A DNA stretch of 64,000 bases from a virus, in the IMG/VR virus record IMGVR_UViG_3300025132_007932, positions 34,425 through 98,424 of that record; one strand, 5' to 3'. Positions 8,951 to 64,000 of the stretch are shown in pieces. The notes below the pieces were generated by a model. The model was not told the DNA's origin. It did not search any database and saw only the letters and a program-made list of their open reading frames with translations. Position 1 is the stretch's first letter; the number at the start of each line of letters is the position of its first letter. The translations under genes and the position numbers were made by a program.

Positions 8951-9501
8951 TGGTAAAGTTAAATTTAGGATGCGGTGATAGAAAAATGCACGGGTTTGTG
9001 AATGTCGACGCTAGAACAGACACCAATCCTGATGTTGTTTGTGATGTGACTCTTATAAATCAAAAATTCAAAGACGTGGATTTAATTTATGCGTGTCACG
9101 TTTTGGAGCACTTCCCTACCAAATCATTTGAATATCAAAAAAGAACTTGGCAAGACGTTTTAGATAATTGGTACGCTACGTTAAAAAAAGGTGGCGTACT
9201 AAGATTGGCGGTACCAGATATAAAGGCAGCGTGTGAGTACTATCTTATGACAAATGATTTTAAATCCGTACAGGCGCTTTTTTATGGTGGCCAAAAATAT
9301 GACTTTGATTTTCATTATCATGCCTGGAGTGAAGACACGCTTACTGAAGCTCTTTTAAATACAGGATTTGAAAAAGTAGAGAGATACGATTGGTCAAAGA
9401 CCGAACATTTTTATGTTGATGATTATAGTCAATCATACCTTCCACATATGGATAAAAAAAATGGCAAACTAATGAGTTTGAACATACAAGCAATTAAATA
9501 A
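8950..9501 (+). CDS. SAM-dependent methyltransferase
   Basis: A class I methyltransferase of 183 residues. Motif I is KLNLGCGDRKMHGFVNVD, with the SAM-binding LGCG loop and an acidic residue at the end of the second strand. LIYACHVLEHFPT is the typical motif after the SAM site, and LKKGGVLRLAVPDIKAA is the usual later strand and loop. Similar proteins occur in sugar clusters, where they methylate sugars or other small molecules. No DNA-binding part is visible. Its position between Gmd and the ColD-like gene points to sugar methylation. Confidence 0.8.
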   Translation: MVKLNLGCGDRKMHGFVNVDARTDTNPDVVCDVTLINQKFKDVDLIYACHVLEHFPTKSFEYQKRTWQDVLDNWYATLKKGGVLRLAVPDIKAACEYYLMTNDFKSVQALFYGGQKYDFDFHYHAWSEDTLTEALLNTGFEKVERYDWSKTEHFYVDDYSQSYLPHMDKKNGKLMSLNIQAIK

Positions 9502-56937: not shown

Positions 56938-56971
56938 AGTTAAGTTGATTTCATTAACAATAGGAGAAAAA

Positions 56972-57556
56972 ATGAAAGTAGAATTAGGGCACCGAGTAAA
57001 GGTGCATTATGTCGGTAGACTAAATGATGGAACTGAATTTGATAATTCTTATGTCCGCGGTGCACCAATAGAATTCGAGGCTGGCTCCGGACAGATGATA
57101 ATTGGATTCGAAAGAGCCGTTATAGGTATGGAAGTAGGAGAAACTAAGAATCATGTGACTATCCCTTGTCATCAGGGCTATGGTGATAGAAACGAGAATG
57201 CAATCCAAGAAGTGCCACGCGCAGCATTCCGACCTGATTTCGAATTTGAGACTGGGGGAGTAATCCAAGGAAATGGACCCCATGGACCCTTCATTGCTAC
57301 AATTAAGGAACACAATGATGAATCGGTGTTTTTGGATATGAATCATCCATTAGCCGGCGAAATTTTGTTTTTCGATATTAACGTTGTCTCATCTGAAGAT
57401 CCCAACGAGTCAGCAAGTGAACAAGAAGAGCCTGTTCTTGCAGAATGGAGCAAGTCAATGAAAAAGGCTGAACTACTTGAGGTAGCGAAGACTCGCGGCC
57501 TAGGCGTCAATACTCGTTCTACAAAAGCTCAAATCATTGAAGCTCTTGAAGCTTAA
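56972..57556 (+). CDS. SlyD-like FKBP prolyl isomerase with SAP-like C-terminal domain
   Basis: The start is ATG 56972 with TAGGAGAAAAA upstream; the longer reading from 56945 adds residues unlike the family. The 194-residue protein begins VKVHYVGRLNDGTEFDNSY, and residues 40-60 include IIGFERAVIGMEVGE, both diagnostic of FKBP-type isomerases. A middle segment (about residues 65-120) corresponds to the insert-in-flap chaperone domain of SlyD. The last 37 residues (KSMKKAELLEVAKTRGLGVN, then TRSTKAQIIEALEA) form a SAP/Rho-N-like helix-extended loop-helix, a nucleic-acid-binding fold. It may help fold phage proteins, perhaps while attached to DNA. It has its own strong promoter. Confidence 0.85.
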   Translation: MKVELGHRVKVHYVGRLNDGTEFDNSYVRGAPIEFEAGSGQMIIGFERAVIGMEVGETKNHVTIPCHQGYGDRNENAIQEVPRAAFRPDFEFETGGVIQGNGPHGPFIATIKEHNDESVFLDMNHPLAGEILFFDINVVSSEDPNESASEQEEPVLAEWSKSMKKAELLEVAKTRGLGVNTRSTKAQIIEALEA

Positions 57557-58568: not shown

Positions 58569-58940
58569 ATGAAAATTACAAAGAAGCAACTAAAAGATCT
58601 TATAGCAGAGGAGATTGAAGCAACCATCGACGAGGGCGCCGAGCTAAAGATTCCAGTCGAAAAATACGATGCCTTCAAAAGAAAGATCGAACAATGGGCT
58701 ATGTTGTTCAACAAATTTACCGCGTATACAAGAGATATTCATCGTCAGGACTTTGATCGAAAAACTGACGGAAAAAGAATAGCTAGAATGGCTTACAAGC
58801 TTGAAAGCGAACTTAGAAAAATTATGCAAGAATTTGATTTTGACGCCAAGGTTTATGATGATGAGCGCTACGCAATGCGCCAGAAGCTTGATAGGTTTGA
58901 TGGCGATAGTGAATTTTTCTTAGAAAAAGATAACGACTGA
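58569..58940 (+). CDS. Unknown protein with capsid-targeting-like N-terminus
   Basis: A 123-residue charged, helical protein whose N-terminus KITKKQLKDLIAEEIE closely resembles that of the next gene (RITKKQLKQIVAEEVA). The segment I-A-E (or V-A-E) followed by Glu matches the (I/L)-x-E cleavage pattern of T4-type prohead proteases and the capsid-targeting peptides of T4 internal proteins. If that holds, this would be an internal head protein injected with the DNA. This is inference from a short motif. The 3' base is shared with the next start. Confidence 0.6.
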   Translation: MKITKKQLKDLIAEEIEATIDEGAELKIPVEKYDAFKRKIEQWAMLFNKFTAYTRDIHRQDFDRKTDGKRIARMAYKLESELRKIMQEFDFDAKVYDDERYAMRQKLDRFDGDSEFFLEKDND

Positions 58941-59884
58941 TGAGAATAACCAAAAAACAATTAAAGCAGATTGTTGCGGAAGAGGTAGCTCATAGGTTGC
59001 TAGATCAAATTATCGAAGAACAACTTGAAGCATACCTAGTAGAGAATGGCGATCTTGCAGCATACAAGAAGGCCAAAAAGAGAGACTTAGTTTCTAAGGT
59101 CAAGAAGGGCCTTCTTTCAACGGCCGCCGTCGGTGCTCTTTTTGGATTACTAAATCAAAAAACGACTGACTACGCAGATATCAAAGCGGCAGAACGTGAG
59201 ATGGTCCAGCAAGCAAATGTTGAAAAAGCAAACACTGACGAAGCCCAACTAGAGCAATTTGCAGATCAGCTAAACAATACTGCCCGATATATGTGGGGTG
59301 TTGGAGATCAAGGAGCAATGCCTGTGCCCGGCACCGATGGCAAGATAACAGTGCTACCTCCGAGCTACAGCTTAGCTGTTCGCGCATTCTTGGATAAAAA
59401 AGAAAATGTAAAAAGAGCAGCCGAGGGTGAAGAGCCAATTATGAGATATGGCGAAATTGATTTAGAGAACATTCCCCAGGTTAGCGGAGAAAACTACAAA
59501 GGGTCATATGAAGAAAACGTAGAAGAGTTTTTCAATGTCTATTCCGGCAAAGACATGGTGGACGCTATCAACGTTGTTCAGAAGGTGCCGGAACTCGATG
59601 TGGTTTCTGGCACAGGAACCGAACAGATGATTGTTATGGTAAACCCAAATAAAATAGATCCTAACTATATCTTGCCTGAACTTGGTATGACTGCAGCAGA
59701 TTATTACAATTCTCAGTATGGGACATTTTTGGGCTCCGGAGAGAAAGAGGCATTAGACACGGGCGCCCCAGACACAGACTTAGATGCTGAGTTGATTCAA
59801 AAAACAAAAGAAAGAGCGGGTAACTTGAAAGAAAGTAAGATTACTTGGAAAAATTACAAAAACCGAAAGAAAAAGCTTGCATAG
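58940..59884 (+). CDS. Unknown protein with capsid-targeting-like N-terminus and hydrophobic segment
   Basis: A 314-residue protein that shares its first 16 residues, in pattern, with the 58569 gene. A moderately hydrophobic segment lies around residues 59-71 (LLSTAAVGALFGL). After that come charged helices and an acidic C-terminal half. As with its neighbour, the N-terminus resembles a prohead-protease-cleaved leader. No named family is recognised. The stop codon overlaps a perfect 12-base palindrome at 59884-59895. Confidence 0.6.
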   Translation: MRITKKQLKQIVAEEVAHRLLDQIIEEQLEAYLVENGDLAAYKKAKKRDLVSKVKKGLLSTAAVGALFGLLNQKTTDYADIKAAEREMVQQANVEKANTDEAQLEQFADQLNNTARYMWGVGDQGAMPVPGTDGKITVLPPSYSLAVRAFLDKKENVKRAAEGEEPIMRYGEIDLENIPQVSGENYKGSYEENVEEFFNVYSGKDMVDAINVVQKVPELDVVSGTGTEQMIVMVNPNKIDPNYILPELGMTAADYYNSQYGTFLGSGEKEALDTGAPDTDLDAELIQKTKERAGNLKESKITWKNYKNRKKKLA

Positions 59885-60053: not shown

Positions 60054-63000
60054 GTGAAATTTGCTCATATTAGTGATACTCACATTAAAAATTTAAAATA
60101 TCATTACGAATATCGAGTCATCTTTGAGCAGCTATACGAAAAGCTGCGAGAAGAAAATGTTGATTACATAGTTCATACGGGTGACGTCGCCCACACAAAG
60201 ACTCAGATTTCCCCAGAGTATGTGGAGTTGTGCGCACAATTTTTTGAGAATCTTGCGAACATTGCACCGACGTATGCTATTCTAGGTAATCATGATGGCA
60301 ACCTGAAGAACAGTAGTCGTCAAGATGCTTTGACGCCGATCTTTAATGCATTGGACCATCCGAACCTGCATCTGTTGAAGGATTCGGGAGAGACAAATAT
60401 TGGCGACAAGTTCTGCTTTAACGTACTTTCAGTATTCGATCGCGATAACTGGATCAAGCCAACAAACGCAGACAAGATCAATATAGCCCTATATCACGGC
60501 TCAATCAGTAATTGTAAGACAGATGTTGGCTGGGTAATGCTTAACGGCGAAGATACAATGGAGATCTTCGATGGATTTGATTTTGCGATGCTTGGAGATA
60601 TTCACCGCCGTCAGATCCTTGACAAGACCGGCCGCATTTGGTACGCCGGCAGCACCGTACAGCAGAATCACGGCGAAACCAACGATAAGGGTATCCTTAT
60701 TTGGGATATCAAATCAAAGGATGAATGGGATGTTGAGCCTGTTGTATTCAATAATCCGAAGCCGTTCATTACTTTAGAGCTTACGCCAAAGGGTCGTATG
60801 CCAAAGGGCGCAAGTGTCCCAGAGGGAGCTAGGCTTCGTATTGTGAGTAATAACAATTTGCCGCTCAATACCATGAAGCGTGCAATGGACATTGCAAAAC
60901 ATCGGTTTAAGCCGGAAGTGGTGACGTTTCTTAACCGGGCTGCCGGCGAACGCGGAGATGTCACCGAACTCACGGATAACCTGAAGACGGAAAACCTCCG
61001 AGACATCAACATTCAAGAAGAGTTGATGGATGAATATCTAAAAGAATATCAAGTTGAGACTTCGACATTGGAAAAAATATATGAACTTAACCGTAAATAT
61101 AAGAAAATGGTCGAAGATGAAAATGATATCTCTAGAAATGTTAACTGGAAATTAGCCAATTTTGAGTTTGACAACTTATTTAATTATGGGGAAAACAACA
61201 ATGTCGGCTTTGATGAGCTTAACGGGATTACAGGGATCTTTGGCAAGAACTTTTCTGGGAAGAGTAGTATTATTGATGCTGTGCTTTGGACTCTTTTTAA
61301 CACAACCTCGAAAAATGAGCGCAAGAATCTCAATGTTATTAACCAGAATAAAGAATTCTGTCGAGGTAAGTTGACGATTGTTGTTGGCCACAAAACTTAT
61401 ACAGTCGAAAGAACTGCTGAAAAATATATTAAACGCTTAAAGGGCGAAGAAACGCAGGAGGCGAAAACTGACCTCAATTTTGAAGTATACGATGAAGTTC
61501 TGGGTGATACAACATCATTAAACGGTTTAAGTCGGATACACACGGATGCAATTATTAGAAAACACTTTGGAGAATGTGAAGACTTTTTGATTTCATCAAT
61601 GGCATCTCAACATGGCGCCCTGGCTTTCATTGATGAGGGCTCCACACGACGTAAAGAGATTATTGCCAAGTTTCTTGATTTAGAAATTTTTGAAAAGAAA
61701 TTTAAGCTTGCAAAAGAAGATAGCACCGATTTGAAGGGTGCAATCCGGCGCCTAGGTGAACGAGATTATGACGAAGAAATAGAAGAAGCAGTCCAAAACT
61801 TATCTACTAAGAAAAAACAGCTTGATGCACATGAGGAACAATGCACCTATCTTAAAACAGAGATGGATAATATGGCTCGCGACTGTGAGGATTTGAGGGT
61901 TAGCATAGAGGCTATCCCAGAAGAGGTGATCAACGTTGCAGATACGACACGTCAGATTCAAAAGAAGCAGATGCAAGTATCCTCATATGAAGCAGAAAAT
62001 AAGCAAAATGTCATATACTTAAACGAAAAGCGTTTGGTGGCGCAAAAGATCGATGATTATTTAGGGCAGATAGATGCTGTCACGCTCGCTAAACAAAGTG
62101 ATGCCATCGAAGCTTTGAGAAATCAACACGCAGAACAGATAAATACTGTAGATTCTTTATTGAAAAAGGTAGAACAGATAGAAAAGAAGTCAAAGCTTCT
62201 TCAAGGTCACAAATATGATCCTAACTGTGAATATTGCTGTGAAAATGAATTTGTTAAGGAAGCCCACGATGCTGTAAACAGTTTGCCGAAAATCAGAAAT
62301 GAACAAGCTTCTGAGCAGTCACAATTAAGAATGATCGACGCAAAGCTTCAGAGCTTACGTCCGAAGTTGATTCAAGAAAAGTTATCCAAGTACAACAAGG
62401 TTGCTGACAAGAAAAATATAGTTACTCATGAAATAGCAGATCTTAATTTGTCGATTGAGAAAAATCAAGCATCCATTGAGCGTATAGGTTATGAATTAAG
62501 AGAGCTGGAAGAAAAGAAGCAAAAGTACGAAGAAAATAAAGATGTTATCGAGAATTTTGAAGAATTTACAAATGAATTGGCCTCCTGTACTGCGAAGCTG
62601 GAAAAAGCCAACAACAGTTACAAAAAATGTCAAAACCAAACTTTAACTCTTTACAAAGAGGTCGGCTCGCTAGAAAAGAACGTAGAAAACATCAAAGAAC
62701 AAAAACAGGAGTATTTAAACTTACAAGAGGAATTCTCGGCCTATGATCTTTATATGCGTTGTATGCACACATCTGGCATTGCTTACGATATTATTAAACG
62801 CAAACTTCCAGTTATCAACCAAGAGGTCGCAAAAGTCTTAGCAAACATTGTTGACTTTGAAATCTTCTTTGAAGATTCTGGTAAGAAATTCGATATTTTC
62901 ATTAAACACCCCAAACATGAACCTCGTCCTATCGAGATGGCTTCTGGTGCCGAAAAGACTATGGGTGCAATGGCAATTAGATTAGCGCTCTTAAGTGTTT

Positions 63001-63212
63001 CTTCTTTGCCTAAGAGTGATTTATTTATTCTTGACGAACCTGGCACAGCTCTGGATGAGGAAAATATGGAGGGTTTTATTCGGATTTTGGAACTAATTAA
63101 GGTATATTTCAAGAACGTTTTGTTGATCTCTCATCTTGATTCACTCAAAGATTGTGTTGACATGCAAATCGTGATTGAAAAAAAATTAGGATATGCAAAG
63201 GTTAACCAATAA
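60054..63212 (+). CDS. Fused SbcD-SbcC (Mre11-Rad50; T4 gp47-gp46) recombination nuclease
   Basis: Start GTG at 60054 with GGAGG upstream. Residues 1 to about 330 are an Mre11/SbcD metallophosphatase: HISDTHI, HTGDVAHT, LGNHDGN, and LGDIHRR. Residues about 365-1052 are a Rad50/SbcC ATPase: Walker A GKNFSGKSS (397-405), a long coiled coil with a zinc hook Cys725-x-x-Cys728, the signature ASGAEKT (963-969), and Walker B FILDEPGTALDEE (Asp994, Glu995). In T4 these are two proteins, gp47 and gp46. Here one chain carries both. Together they would resect DNA ends for recombination-dependent replication. It overlaps the tubulin-like gene by one base. Confidence 0.93.
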   Translation: MKFAHISDTHIKNLKYHYEYRVIFEQLYEKLREENVDYIVHTGDVAHTKTQISPEYVELCAQFFENLANIAPTYAILGNHDGNLKNSSRQDALTPIFNALDHPNLHLLKDSGETNIGDKFCFNVLSVFDRDNWIKPTNADKINIALYHGSISNCKTDVGWVMLNGEDTMEIFDGFDFAMLGDIHRRQILDKTGRIWYAGSTVQQNHGETNDKGILIWDIKSKDEWDVEPVVFNNPKPFITLELTPKGRMPKGASVPEGARLRIVSNNNLPLNTMKRAMDIAKHRFKPEVVTFLNRAAGERGDVTELTDNLKTENLRDINIQEELMDEYLKEYQVETSTLEKIYELNRKYKKMVEDENDISRNVNWKLANFEFDNLFNYGENNNVGFDELNGITGIFGKNFSGKSSIIDAVLWTLFNTTSKNERKNLNVINQNKEFCRGKLTIVVGHKTYTVERTAEKYIKRLKGEETQEAKTDLNFEVYDEVLGDTTSLNGLSRIHTDAIIRKHFGECEDFLISSMASQHGALAFIDEGSTRRKEIIAKFLDLEIFEKKFKLAKEDSTDLKGAIRRLGERDYDEEIEEAVQNLSTKKKQLDAHEEQCTYLKTEMDNMARDCEDLRVSIEAIPEEVINVADTTRQIQKKQMQVSSYEAENKQNVIYLNEKRLVAQKIDDYLGQIDAVTLAKQSDAIEALRNQHAEQINTVDSLLKKVEQIEKKSKLLQGHKYDPNCEYCCENEFVKEAHDAVNSLPKIRNEQASEQSQLRMIDAKLQSLRPKLIQEKLSKYNKVADKKNIVTHEIADLNLSIEKNQASIERIGYELRELEEKKQKYEENKDVIENFEEFTNELASCTAKLEKANNSYKKCQNQTLTLYKEVGSLEKNVENIKEQKQEYLNLQEEFSAYDLYMRCMHTSGIAYDIIKRKLPVINQEVAKVLANIVDFEIFFEDSGKKFDIFIKHPKHEPRPIEMASGAEKTMGAMAIRLALLSVSSLPKSDLFILDEPGTALDEENMEGFIRILELIKVYFKNVLLISHLDSLKDCVDMQIVIEKKLGYAKVNQ

Positions 63213-64000
63213 TGTCTAACGATAACGATAATAATGAGTTCGATTTTCTGCCTCCCGCAGAGCCACCCCCAGCGTTTGTGCAAGAAAAGGATAGTTTTCA
63301 CGAAGAAGTAGAAGCAGAAGATTTTGGAATGGTTGAGGATTTCGGATTACAGATGGAATACTCTGATGAAGATTTACTCCCAGAGAATACTGCGCCCTCA
63401 TCTATTAATGTCGGCTTTGTCGGTGTCGGCGGTGGAGGCAACAAAATGGCGAATGCGTTTATTGAACTTGGTTTTAATAAAACACTGCTTGTGAATACAA
63501 CAGGCAAAGACATTCCAAAGAATGTCGAAGAGGATCACGTTGTCCTTATACCAGATGCAGATGGCATCGGAAAAAACGTAGATTATGGAAAAGAGGTTTT
63601 AAGTCAAAATGGTGCAATTGTTGAAGATGCTCTCCGCATCAAGCTCGGTAAAGTTGATTGGTTATTCGTCCTTGCTGGCGGTGGTGGTGGTACCGGTAGT
63701 TCTGTTACCGCTCTGCACCCTGTCTTTGAGCGTTACTTACGTTCTATTCAGGCAAGCGGCAAAGTCGTTTATATAGTTTCATGGCCGACAGCACAAGAAA
63801 GTCTTAATCCTACAATCGCTCGTAATGCGTTGACGCTGGCAAATGATGTCACCAAGCATCCGCATATCATTCTCGATAATGAACGAGCCACTCGCTTACT
63901 TCGCGGCAGAATCGGCATGCTTGGCATGTATCCTGTCGCCAACACACAATTTGCTAAGTCATTAGCCCAAGTGTTAAAACTCTCCACTGAGGATTCACCG
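63212..64000 (+). CDS. FtsZ/tubulin-like GTPase (3' truncated by the window)
   Basis: The visible 263 residues begin with about 65 acidic, Pro-containing residues, likely a disordered extension. The GTPase fold starts at INVGFVGVGGGGNKMANAF, with the nucleotide-binding Gly-rich loop, and continues with the tubulin signature AGGGGGTGSS (residues 155-164). LNPTIARNAL and the following helix also fit the fold. In some large phages (PhuZ-type), such a protein forms filaments that centre the replicating DNA or carry capsids. FtsZ-like and TubZ-like alternatives cannot be excluded. The start shares one base with the recombination gene's stop. The T7 loop and C-terminus lie outside the window. Confidence 0.88.
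   Translation, partial: MSNDNDNNEFDFLPPAEPPPAFVQEKDSFHEEVEAEDFGMVEDFGLQMEYSDEDLLPENTAPSSINVGFVGVGGGGNKMANAFIELGFNKTLLVNTTGKDIPKNVEEDHVVLIPDADGIGKNVDYGKEVLSQNGAIVEDALRIKLGKVDWLFVLAGGGGGTGSSVTALHPVFERYLRSIQASGKVVYIVSWPTAQESLNPTIARNALTLANDVTKHPHIILDNERATRLLRGRIGMLGMYPVANTQFAKSLAQVLKLSTEDSP

Follow-up and report, generated by a model that had tools for sequence, protein, structure and literature searches.

An FtsZ/tubulin-like GTPase family of large T4-type marine phages that may act late in virion assembly

The window analysed here is a 64,000-nucleotide stretch (G000:C1:34425-98424) of a virus record of 98,424 bases. It ends where the record ends, and therefore the gene with which it closes is truncated in the source. 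This gene starts with an ATG at 63212 and its frame stays open on the plus strand to the end of window and contig (63212..64000, 263 codons, 263 aa). A first-pass annotation had read it as a phage FtsZ/tubulin-like GTPase, and this is borne out by a match of the window protein to the Pfam model PF00091 (Tubulin/FtsZ GTPase; 36.2 bits, E 1e-8, against a curated cut-off of 33 bits) and by a phmmer match to the FtsZ of S. aureus (E 1e-8). The two sequence elements on which that reading relied, a glycine-rich loop and AGGGGGTGSS, are both present. The first nucleotide-binding loop, FVGVGGGGN (63416..63442, plus strand, aa 69-77, with GVGGGG at aa 71-76), was placed by alignment with E. coli FtsZ, and the tubulin/FtsZ signature loop AGGGGGTGSS (63674..63703, plus strand, aa 155-164) aligns with GMGGGTGTG of FtsZ. 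A chance frame is excluded because 212 non-redundant homologous loci have the same frame and motifs, and because in the most distant genome pair compared the protein is 88.5% identical with 4-fold sites near saturation.

The upstream neighbour (60054..63212, plus strand) encodes a 1052-aa SbcD (Mre11)-SbcC (Rad50) fusion, recognised by phrog_100 and phrog_77 and by Pfam Metallophos and AAA_23/SMC_N. Its stop codon (63210-63212) overlaps the ATG of the FtsZ-like gene (63212-63214) by the one shared base, 63212, that had been noted before. The fusion of Mre11 and Rad50 in one frame is common to the relatives, at 57-65% identity; in T4 the counterparts are separate genes, 47 and 46. An FKBP-type peptidyl-prolyl isomerase (56945-57556, Pfam 78 bits) lies further upstream, beside RuvC-like and primase genes. 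Between these come a small gene starting MKITKKQLKDLIAEE (58569..58940, plus strand), possibly a capsid-targeting N-terminus, and a gene starting MRITKKQLKQIVAEE (58940..59884, plus strand), with an N-terminus of the same type and the same putative role. The N-terminus MKITKxQLKxIIxEE is common to small proteins in these phages, and a further group carries MKLLxENWRxYLNE; the sites listed with shared N-termini are the two in the window, positions 9496, 12220 and 12465 of L007, and 9613 and 12406 of L077. In three genomes (G000, G001 and G009) every MKITKxQLKxIIxEE start is no more than 7 kb away from the FtsZ-like gene; in G002 this holds for two of five. Both types of start are reminiscent of the capsid-targeting sequences of T4, with a protease site of the (L/I)xE type, and the MKITK type resembles them in position and length, the T4 propeptides having 10-20 residues (PMC5694885); by their sequence they are candidates for this role. 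The T4-type late promoter motif was not significantly enriched in the window, its count being reached by 7 of 100 shuffles.

Because the gene is cut by the contig end, its missing 3' part was taken from relatives. A search of IMG/VR gave 80 loci with about 88-96% identity to the window protein over the part matched, and 76 of these hold a complete frame of 340-384 aa, the full length in close relatives being about 379 aa. More distant members were found by a DNA-pattern scan of the signature loop followed by a profile search, and two more scans added members. Our working alignment, A5, has 29 members, 51-97% identical to L002, a full-length relative that itself matches the window protein at 96% identity where the two overlap. 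The relatives have a complete FtsZ-type core and then a stop, with neither a linker nor a C-terminal conserved peptide. Since the window copy ends at aa 263, the T7-loop residues were read in the relatives. Throughout the 29 members AGGGGGTGS is invariant, and so are F267, D268, D271 and L272 of the T7 loop; by alignment D268 and D271 correspond to D209 and D212 of E. coli FtsZ, and the position of FtsZ N207 holds S, T or A. The pattern FD(S/T)(K/N/R)DL was found in 117 of the 119 longer sequences. Even the distant member L240, whose PF00091 score of 23.7 bits is below the cut-off, still aligns throughout with the family. The loss of the GTPase-activating loop, which the annotation had named as telling against its reading, is thus not what the relatives have, for both catalytic aspartates are kept. 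Because the residues of the nucleotide loop and of the T7 loop are invariant, we argue that the phage protein would be an active GTPase, and presumably a polymerising one.

An AlphaFold2 model of L002 built with A5 (29 relatives) reached a mean pLDDT of 85.7 and a pTM of 0.82, and superseded an earlier, poor model from a shallow alignment (pTM 0.54); only residues 1-9 and 13-49 fall below 50. Foldseek against the PDB returned CetZ as the best match (E 4e-20), many FtsZ structures with TM scores up to 0.80 by target length (S. aureus FtsZ, 0.80), and TubZ at 0.68-0.70. With these values (pTM 0.82, TM to 0.80) the model has the two-domain tubulin/FtsZ fold. Among predicted viral proteins the best matches were metagenomic phage FtsZ-like proteins at 15-17% identity.

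The acidic N-terminal extension of 65 residues that had been pointed out as unusual (aa 1-66, 63212..63409, plus strand) is real, as judged from the AlphaFold2 model of the closest full-length relative and from a charge count, and it is also conserved across the family with an acidic-aromatic motif. About 65-66 residues precede the first core strand, with a net charge of -16 to -18 in close relatives, and residues 1-49 are mostly predicted to be disordered in the closest full-length relative. The length of the tail varies; a motif of the DFDFV type, followed by LLPENxAxS, sits ahead of the core. In A5 the family-wide form is (D/E)F(D/G)(F/M)(V/I)...LLP(E/D)NxAxS (aa 36-64, 63317..63403, plus strand); 110 of the 119 longer sequences hold the strict pattern and the remaining nine are near-variants. 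Because the tail motif is present and the C-terminal tail of FtsZ is absent, the sequences suggest that partner docking may have moved from the C-terminus, as in FtsZ, to the N-terminus of the phage protein.

In IMG/VR the family, large and uncultured, has 212 non-redundant loci in T4-type marine phages, the longest contig reaching 293 kb. It scores 49.3 bits with the FtsZ equivalog model TIGR00065, against a cut-off of 295.2 and 471.7 for E. coli FtsZ. There was no match to FtsZ_C (PF12327), which the E. coli FtsZ control matches, or to the C-terminal domain of PhuZ (PF22334, TubZ_C_2), to which phiKZ PhuZ scores 128 bits; the main family did not match TubZ-like_C, and the PHROG of tubulin PhuZ (4733) gave only E 0.042 with the truncated window protein as query. 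In a maximum-likelihood tree with 19 cellular FtsZ, five PhuZ and gp138 of phage G, the family forms a single clade with support of 100 on a long stem, outside the cellular FtsZ. The nearest clade is that of PhuZ and phage G (nodes 86 and 100), with very long stems and hence possible long-branch attraction; because all phage stems are very long, the deeper order of the tree is unreliable. Over the trimmed alignment, identity is about 16-21% to nearly all sampled cellular FtsZ (24.5% to one fragment of 170 aa), 13-18% to PhuZ and 19.8% to phage G gp138. Tblastn searches gave no match in plasmids, and among 50,697 phage records (INPHARED) the sole match was phage G (E 0.01). A scan of GTDB contigs with the A1 alignment found none, this being a narrow scan with patterns from two N-terminal peptides only. 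Placement with recent host FtsZ, the other outcome named beforehand as damaging, was thus not found, and recent capture from the host is rejected on the family's own clade, its low identity, its failure with FtsZ models and these searches, the one of GTDB being narrow.

The same annotation had remarked that this tubulin sits in a T4-type rather than a phiKZ-like genome, and this is what we find. PHROGs recognise a portal, a head maturation protease, a major head protein and a head-tail adaptor, as in T4-type phages. For TerL, identity is 47% to the protein of Flavobacterium phage immuto and 44% to that of Microcystis phage Mel-JY01; neither of these phages has a PF00091 match. In 13 contigs of 191-293 kb, perhaps incomplete, neither chimallin (phrog_4795) nor the RNA polymerase beta family of nucleus phages (phrog_2987) was detected, phiKZ being positive for both. 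Ten of these contigs were searched with A5, and in every one the FtsZ-like gene is present as a single copy. Of 18 contigs picked for having a related TerL, all of them fragments, two gave a match, one of these being a distant cousin, and universal presence of the gene in the wider clade is therefore unsupported. On the same contig as the window but beyond its bounds, ARAGORN predicts a tmRNA with the tag ANNNLHFEQRLAA (G000:C1:18761-19096, locus L181), which might point to the host; tRNAs were uninformative in this respect.

The cousin (L662:9044-10186, genome G022) lies on a contig chosen by TerL and not by the FtsZ-like gene. It scores 128 bits with the A5 profile, is 26% identical to a group-1 protein by blastp, passes the Pfam cut-off for TubZ-like_C, has an acidic N-terminus starting MEDLDIPSLD, and has no match in the phage records. 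With so divergent a cousin, the FtsZ/tubulin genes of this phage group span more diversity than the main family alone. As separate observations, genome G001 encodes an enzyme of the IMP dehydrogenase/GMP reductase family (L157:454-1554, Pfam 335 bits) and a GroEL chaperonin (L156:14548-16125); IMP dehydrogenase would feed GTP synthesis, and a link to the FtsZ-like GTPase is only a thought. Its replicative polymerase (L157:6778-10248, 1156 aa) has matches among the DNA polymerase families of PHROGs, and by its start it would seem to be of the DnaE/PHP type rather than like T4 gp43.

Conservation was examined in four genome pairs, made up of near-complete genomes with each other and of the window contig with them. 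The FtsZ-like protein ranks first in identity among all reciprocal best hits in all four, with 88.5, 95.0, 93.9 and 89.6% against protein medians of 54, 59, 56 and 52%. In the most distant pair its 4-fold identity is 0.415 against a genome median of 0.31, near saturation, and because these sites are near the genome level we ascribe the conservation there to purifying selection on the protein. In two closer pairs the 4-fold identity is raised, to 0.69-0.73 against genome medians of 0.33-0.38, and recent recombination therefore adds to the identity. An account of the extreme conservation by selection alone has to be qualified accordingly, since recent exchange is seen at the synonymous sites of two pairs out of three. 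Among random pairs drawn from the whole set, the FtsZ-like protein was more conserved than TerL in 123 of 150, than the portal in 108 of 149, than the neck protein in 105 of 146 and than the sheath in 147 of 149; it was also above PhoH, primase and the Mre11-Rad50 fusion in most pairs, and about level with MCP and head protease.

The surroundings of the gene were tabulated for the 212 non-redundant loci, nine of which were too short to place, with markers scored within 6 kb. Among the 203 placeable loci the gene is downstream of the Mre11-Rad50 fusion in 57 and upstream of p209/TerL with no fusion scored in 34 (some of which do have an overlapping one), so that 91 in total are downstream of the fusion and/or upstream of p209/TerL. 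In another 50 it occupies one of three slots of the head module: portal to protease (15), protease to scaffold/MCP (3) or MCP to neck (32). In 27 it adjoins PhoH, and 35 have no marker gene within 6 kb. For scale, the head block with 6 kb on either side makes up about 17% of genome G001, as estimated from gene coordinates. In most placeable loci, then, the FtsZ-like gene belongs to the block of head and packaging genes or comes shortly before it. The link between DNA handling and a filament that the shared base with the nuclease gene had hinted at proved weak. A same-strand fusion is present at 70 loci; it is directly upstream in only 18 of them and separated by more than 400 bp in 42, and other lineages have the gene in the head-assembly module; as a general feature the link is rejected.

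We suggest that the protein is a GTP-binding filament-former of a third lineage that would work late in infection, on the positioning or delivery of proheads or on packaging sites, and we put the probability of this reading at roughly one half; the polymerisation, timing and cargo in it are inferred. GTP would bind the N-terminal domain of the subunit. Subunits would probably polymerise head to tail, the T7-loop aspartates of the next subunit triggering GTP hydrolysis, and the acidic, mostly disordered N-terminal tail with its motif would probably replace the C-terminal tail of FtsZ as the docking site for phage partners. The filament would most likely act late, positioning or delivering proheads or organising packaging sites, in the way that PhuZ carries capsids but with no nucleus. 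Late action on proheads is suggested by the gene position, with its repeated association with head genes, and by the conservation, and the MKITK-type proteins near the gene fit it. Several results tell against the proposal: the 35 placeable loci with no marker nearby and the 27 beside PhoH, the T4-type late promoter motif with no clear enrichment, the S, T or A in place of FtsZ N207, the share that recombination has in the identity, and the two matches among the 18 contigs picked by TerL. Prohead assembly in T4 starts with the portal, at the inner membrane (PMC9958956), and in the Pseudomonas nucleus phages capsids are carried by PhuZ (PMC10299810); a filament that moves or holds proheads is therefore a plausible analogue.

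Perhaps the protein is instead a host-takeover factor that mimics FtsZ and jams or redirects the division ring, leaving infected cells to grow but not divide. The FtsZ-like fold with both catalytic aspartates would fit, and DLDIP in the acidic N-terminus of the cousin resembles the C-terminal peptide of FtsZ, a likeness that may be due to chance; small phage proteins that bind FtsZ, such as T7 Gp0.4, are also known (PMC13423816). However, the C-terminal tail is absent, co-assembly with host FtsZ is unlikely at only about 16-24% identity to the sampled cellular proteins, and a gene conserved far above the genome average usually keeps company with late head and packaging genes, so that we consider this role unlikely.

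A TubZ-like DNA-partition motor, segregating phage genomes in a plasmid-like or pseudolysogenic state or during replication, is suggested by the TM scores of 0.68-0.70 to TubZ, by the TubZ-like_C match of the cousin and by the recombination nuclease gene adjoining the window copy. TubZ systems have a TubR-tubC partner, whereas no partner of this type was recognised beside the FtsZ-like gene on reading our neighbourhood tables; the main family does not match TubZ-like_C, and the gene content is that of lytic T4-type phages. Partition is thus an improbable function. We give little credence, too, to a structural or scaffolding part of prohead or virion in which the FtsZ fold serves as an assembly switch rather than a cytoplasmic filament: many lineages have the gene flanked by head protease and scaffold/MCP or by MCP and neck, and identity is about as high as that of MCP, but a static part would not need the invariant catalytic T7 residues, the protein has no recognisable capsid-targeting N-terminus, and the gene is found away from the head module too.

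What is known of phage tubulins comes mostly from jumbo phages that form a nucleus; their PhuZ is an accessory motor that can be dispensed with (PMC10299810). Two types of FtsZ/tubulin were named in a 2021 survey of jumbo phages, which also tied tubulin to the RNA polymerases of phages (PMC7824862). The tubulin lineage described here is a separate one and counts among the most conserved proteins of its T4-type phages, where searches for the chimallin and RNA polymerase families gave no match. In the open-access literature no description of this family was met with, subscription papers and preprints lying outside that search. If filaments form, cytoskeletal organisation of virus assembly in bacteria would be broader than the nucleus model implies, and whether filaments move capsids, a question usually asked of nucleus phages only, would become testable in a simpler system. 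More tentatively, and with the odds somewhat against it, a widespread and uncultured group of large T4-type marine phages may build a dynamic tubulin-like cytoskeleton for virion assembly with no nucleus, on which proheads or packaging machinery would dock via the acidic-aromatic N-terminal motif. If so, viral cytoskeletal transport arose independently of nucleus formation.

The phage tubulins described so far comprise PhuZ, TubZ and gp138 of phage G. With cellular FtsZ the family shares a complete core of GTPase and C-terminal domains, the signature loop and the two aspartates of the T7 loop, but it is only about 16-24% identical, has no C-terminal linker or peptide, and carries an acidic N-terminal tail with a motif of its own. 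Like PhuZ, it is a phage-encoded GTPase of the tubulin superfamily and a candidate to work in a similar way in capsid transport; unlike PhuZ, whose signature loop is GG(A/G)SGS, it has GGGGGTGS, no TubZ_C_2 domain and 13-18% identity, and the 13 contigs gave no match to chimallin or to the RNA polymerase family of nucleus phages. The fold is also like that of TubZ (TM 0.68-0.70), whereas the main family is without TubZ-like_C, is set among head genes of lytic T4-type phages, and has no TubR-like partner recognised in its neighbourhood tables. The putative FtsZ-like gp138 of Bacillus phage G has a similar T7 loop, FDxNDL, but it stands on a very long branch, comes from an unrelated phage and matches locally over about half the length. 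The best match among predicted viral structures, A0A6J5RW92 (FtsZ Cell division GTPase, uncultured Caudovirales phage; E 1.5e-21), is only 15% identical and by sequence belongs to a different family. The best reading of these comparisons is that the family is a third phage tubulin lineage beside PhuZ and TubZ, and what is new here is the family itself, which is large, stands apart from the known phage tubulins, and has a motif of its own and a genomic setting unlike theirs.
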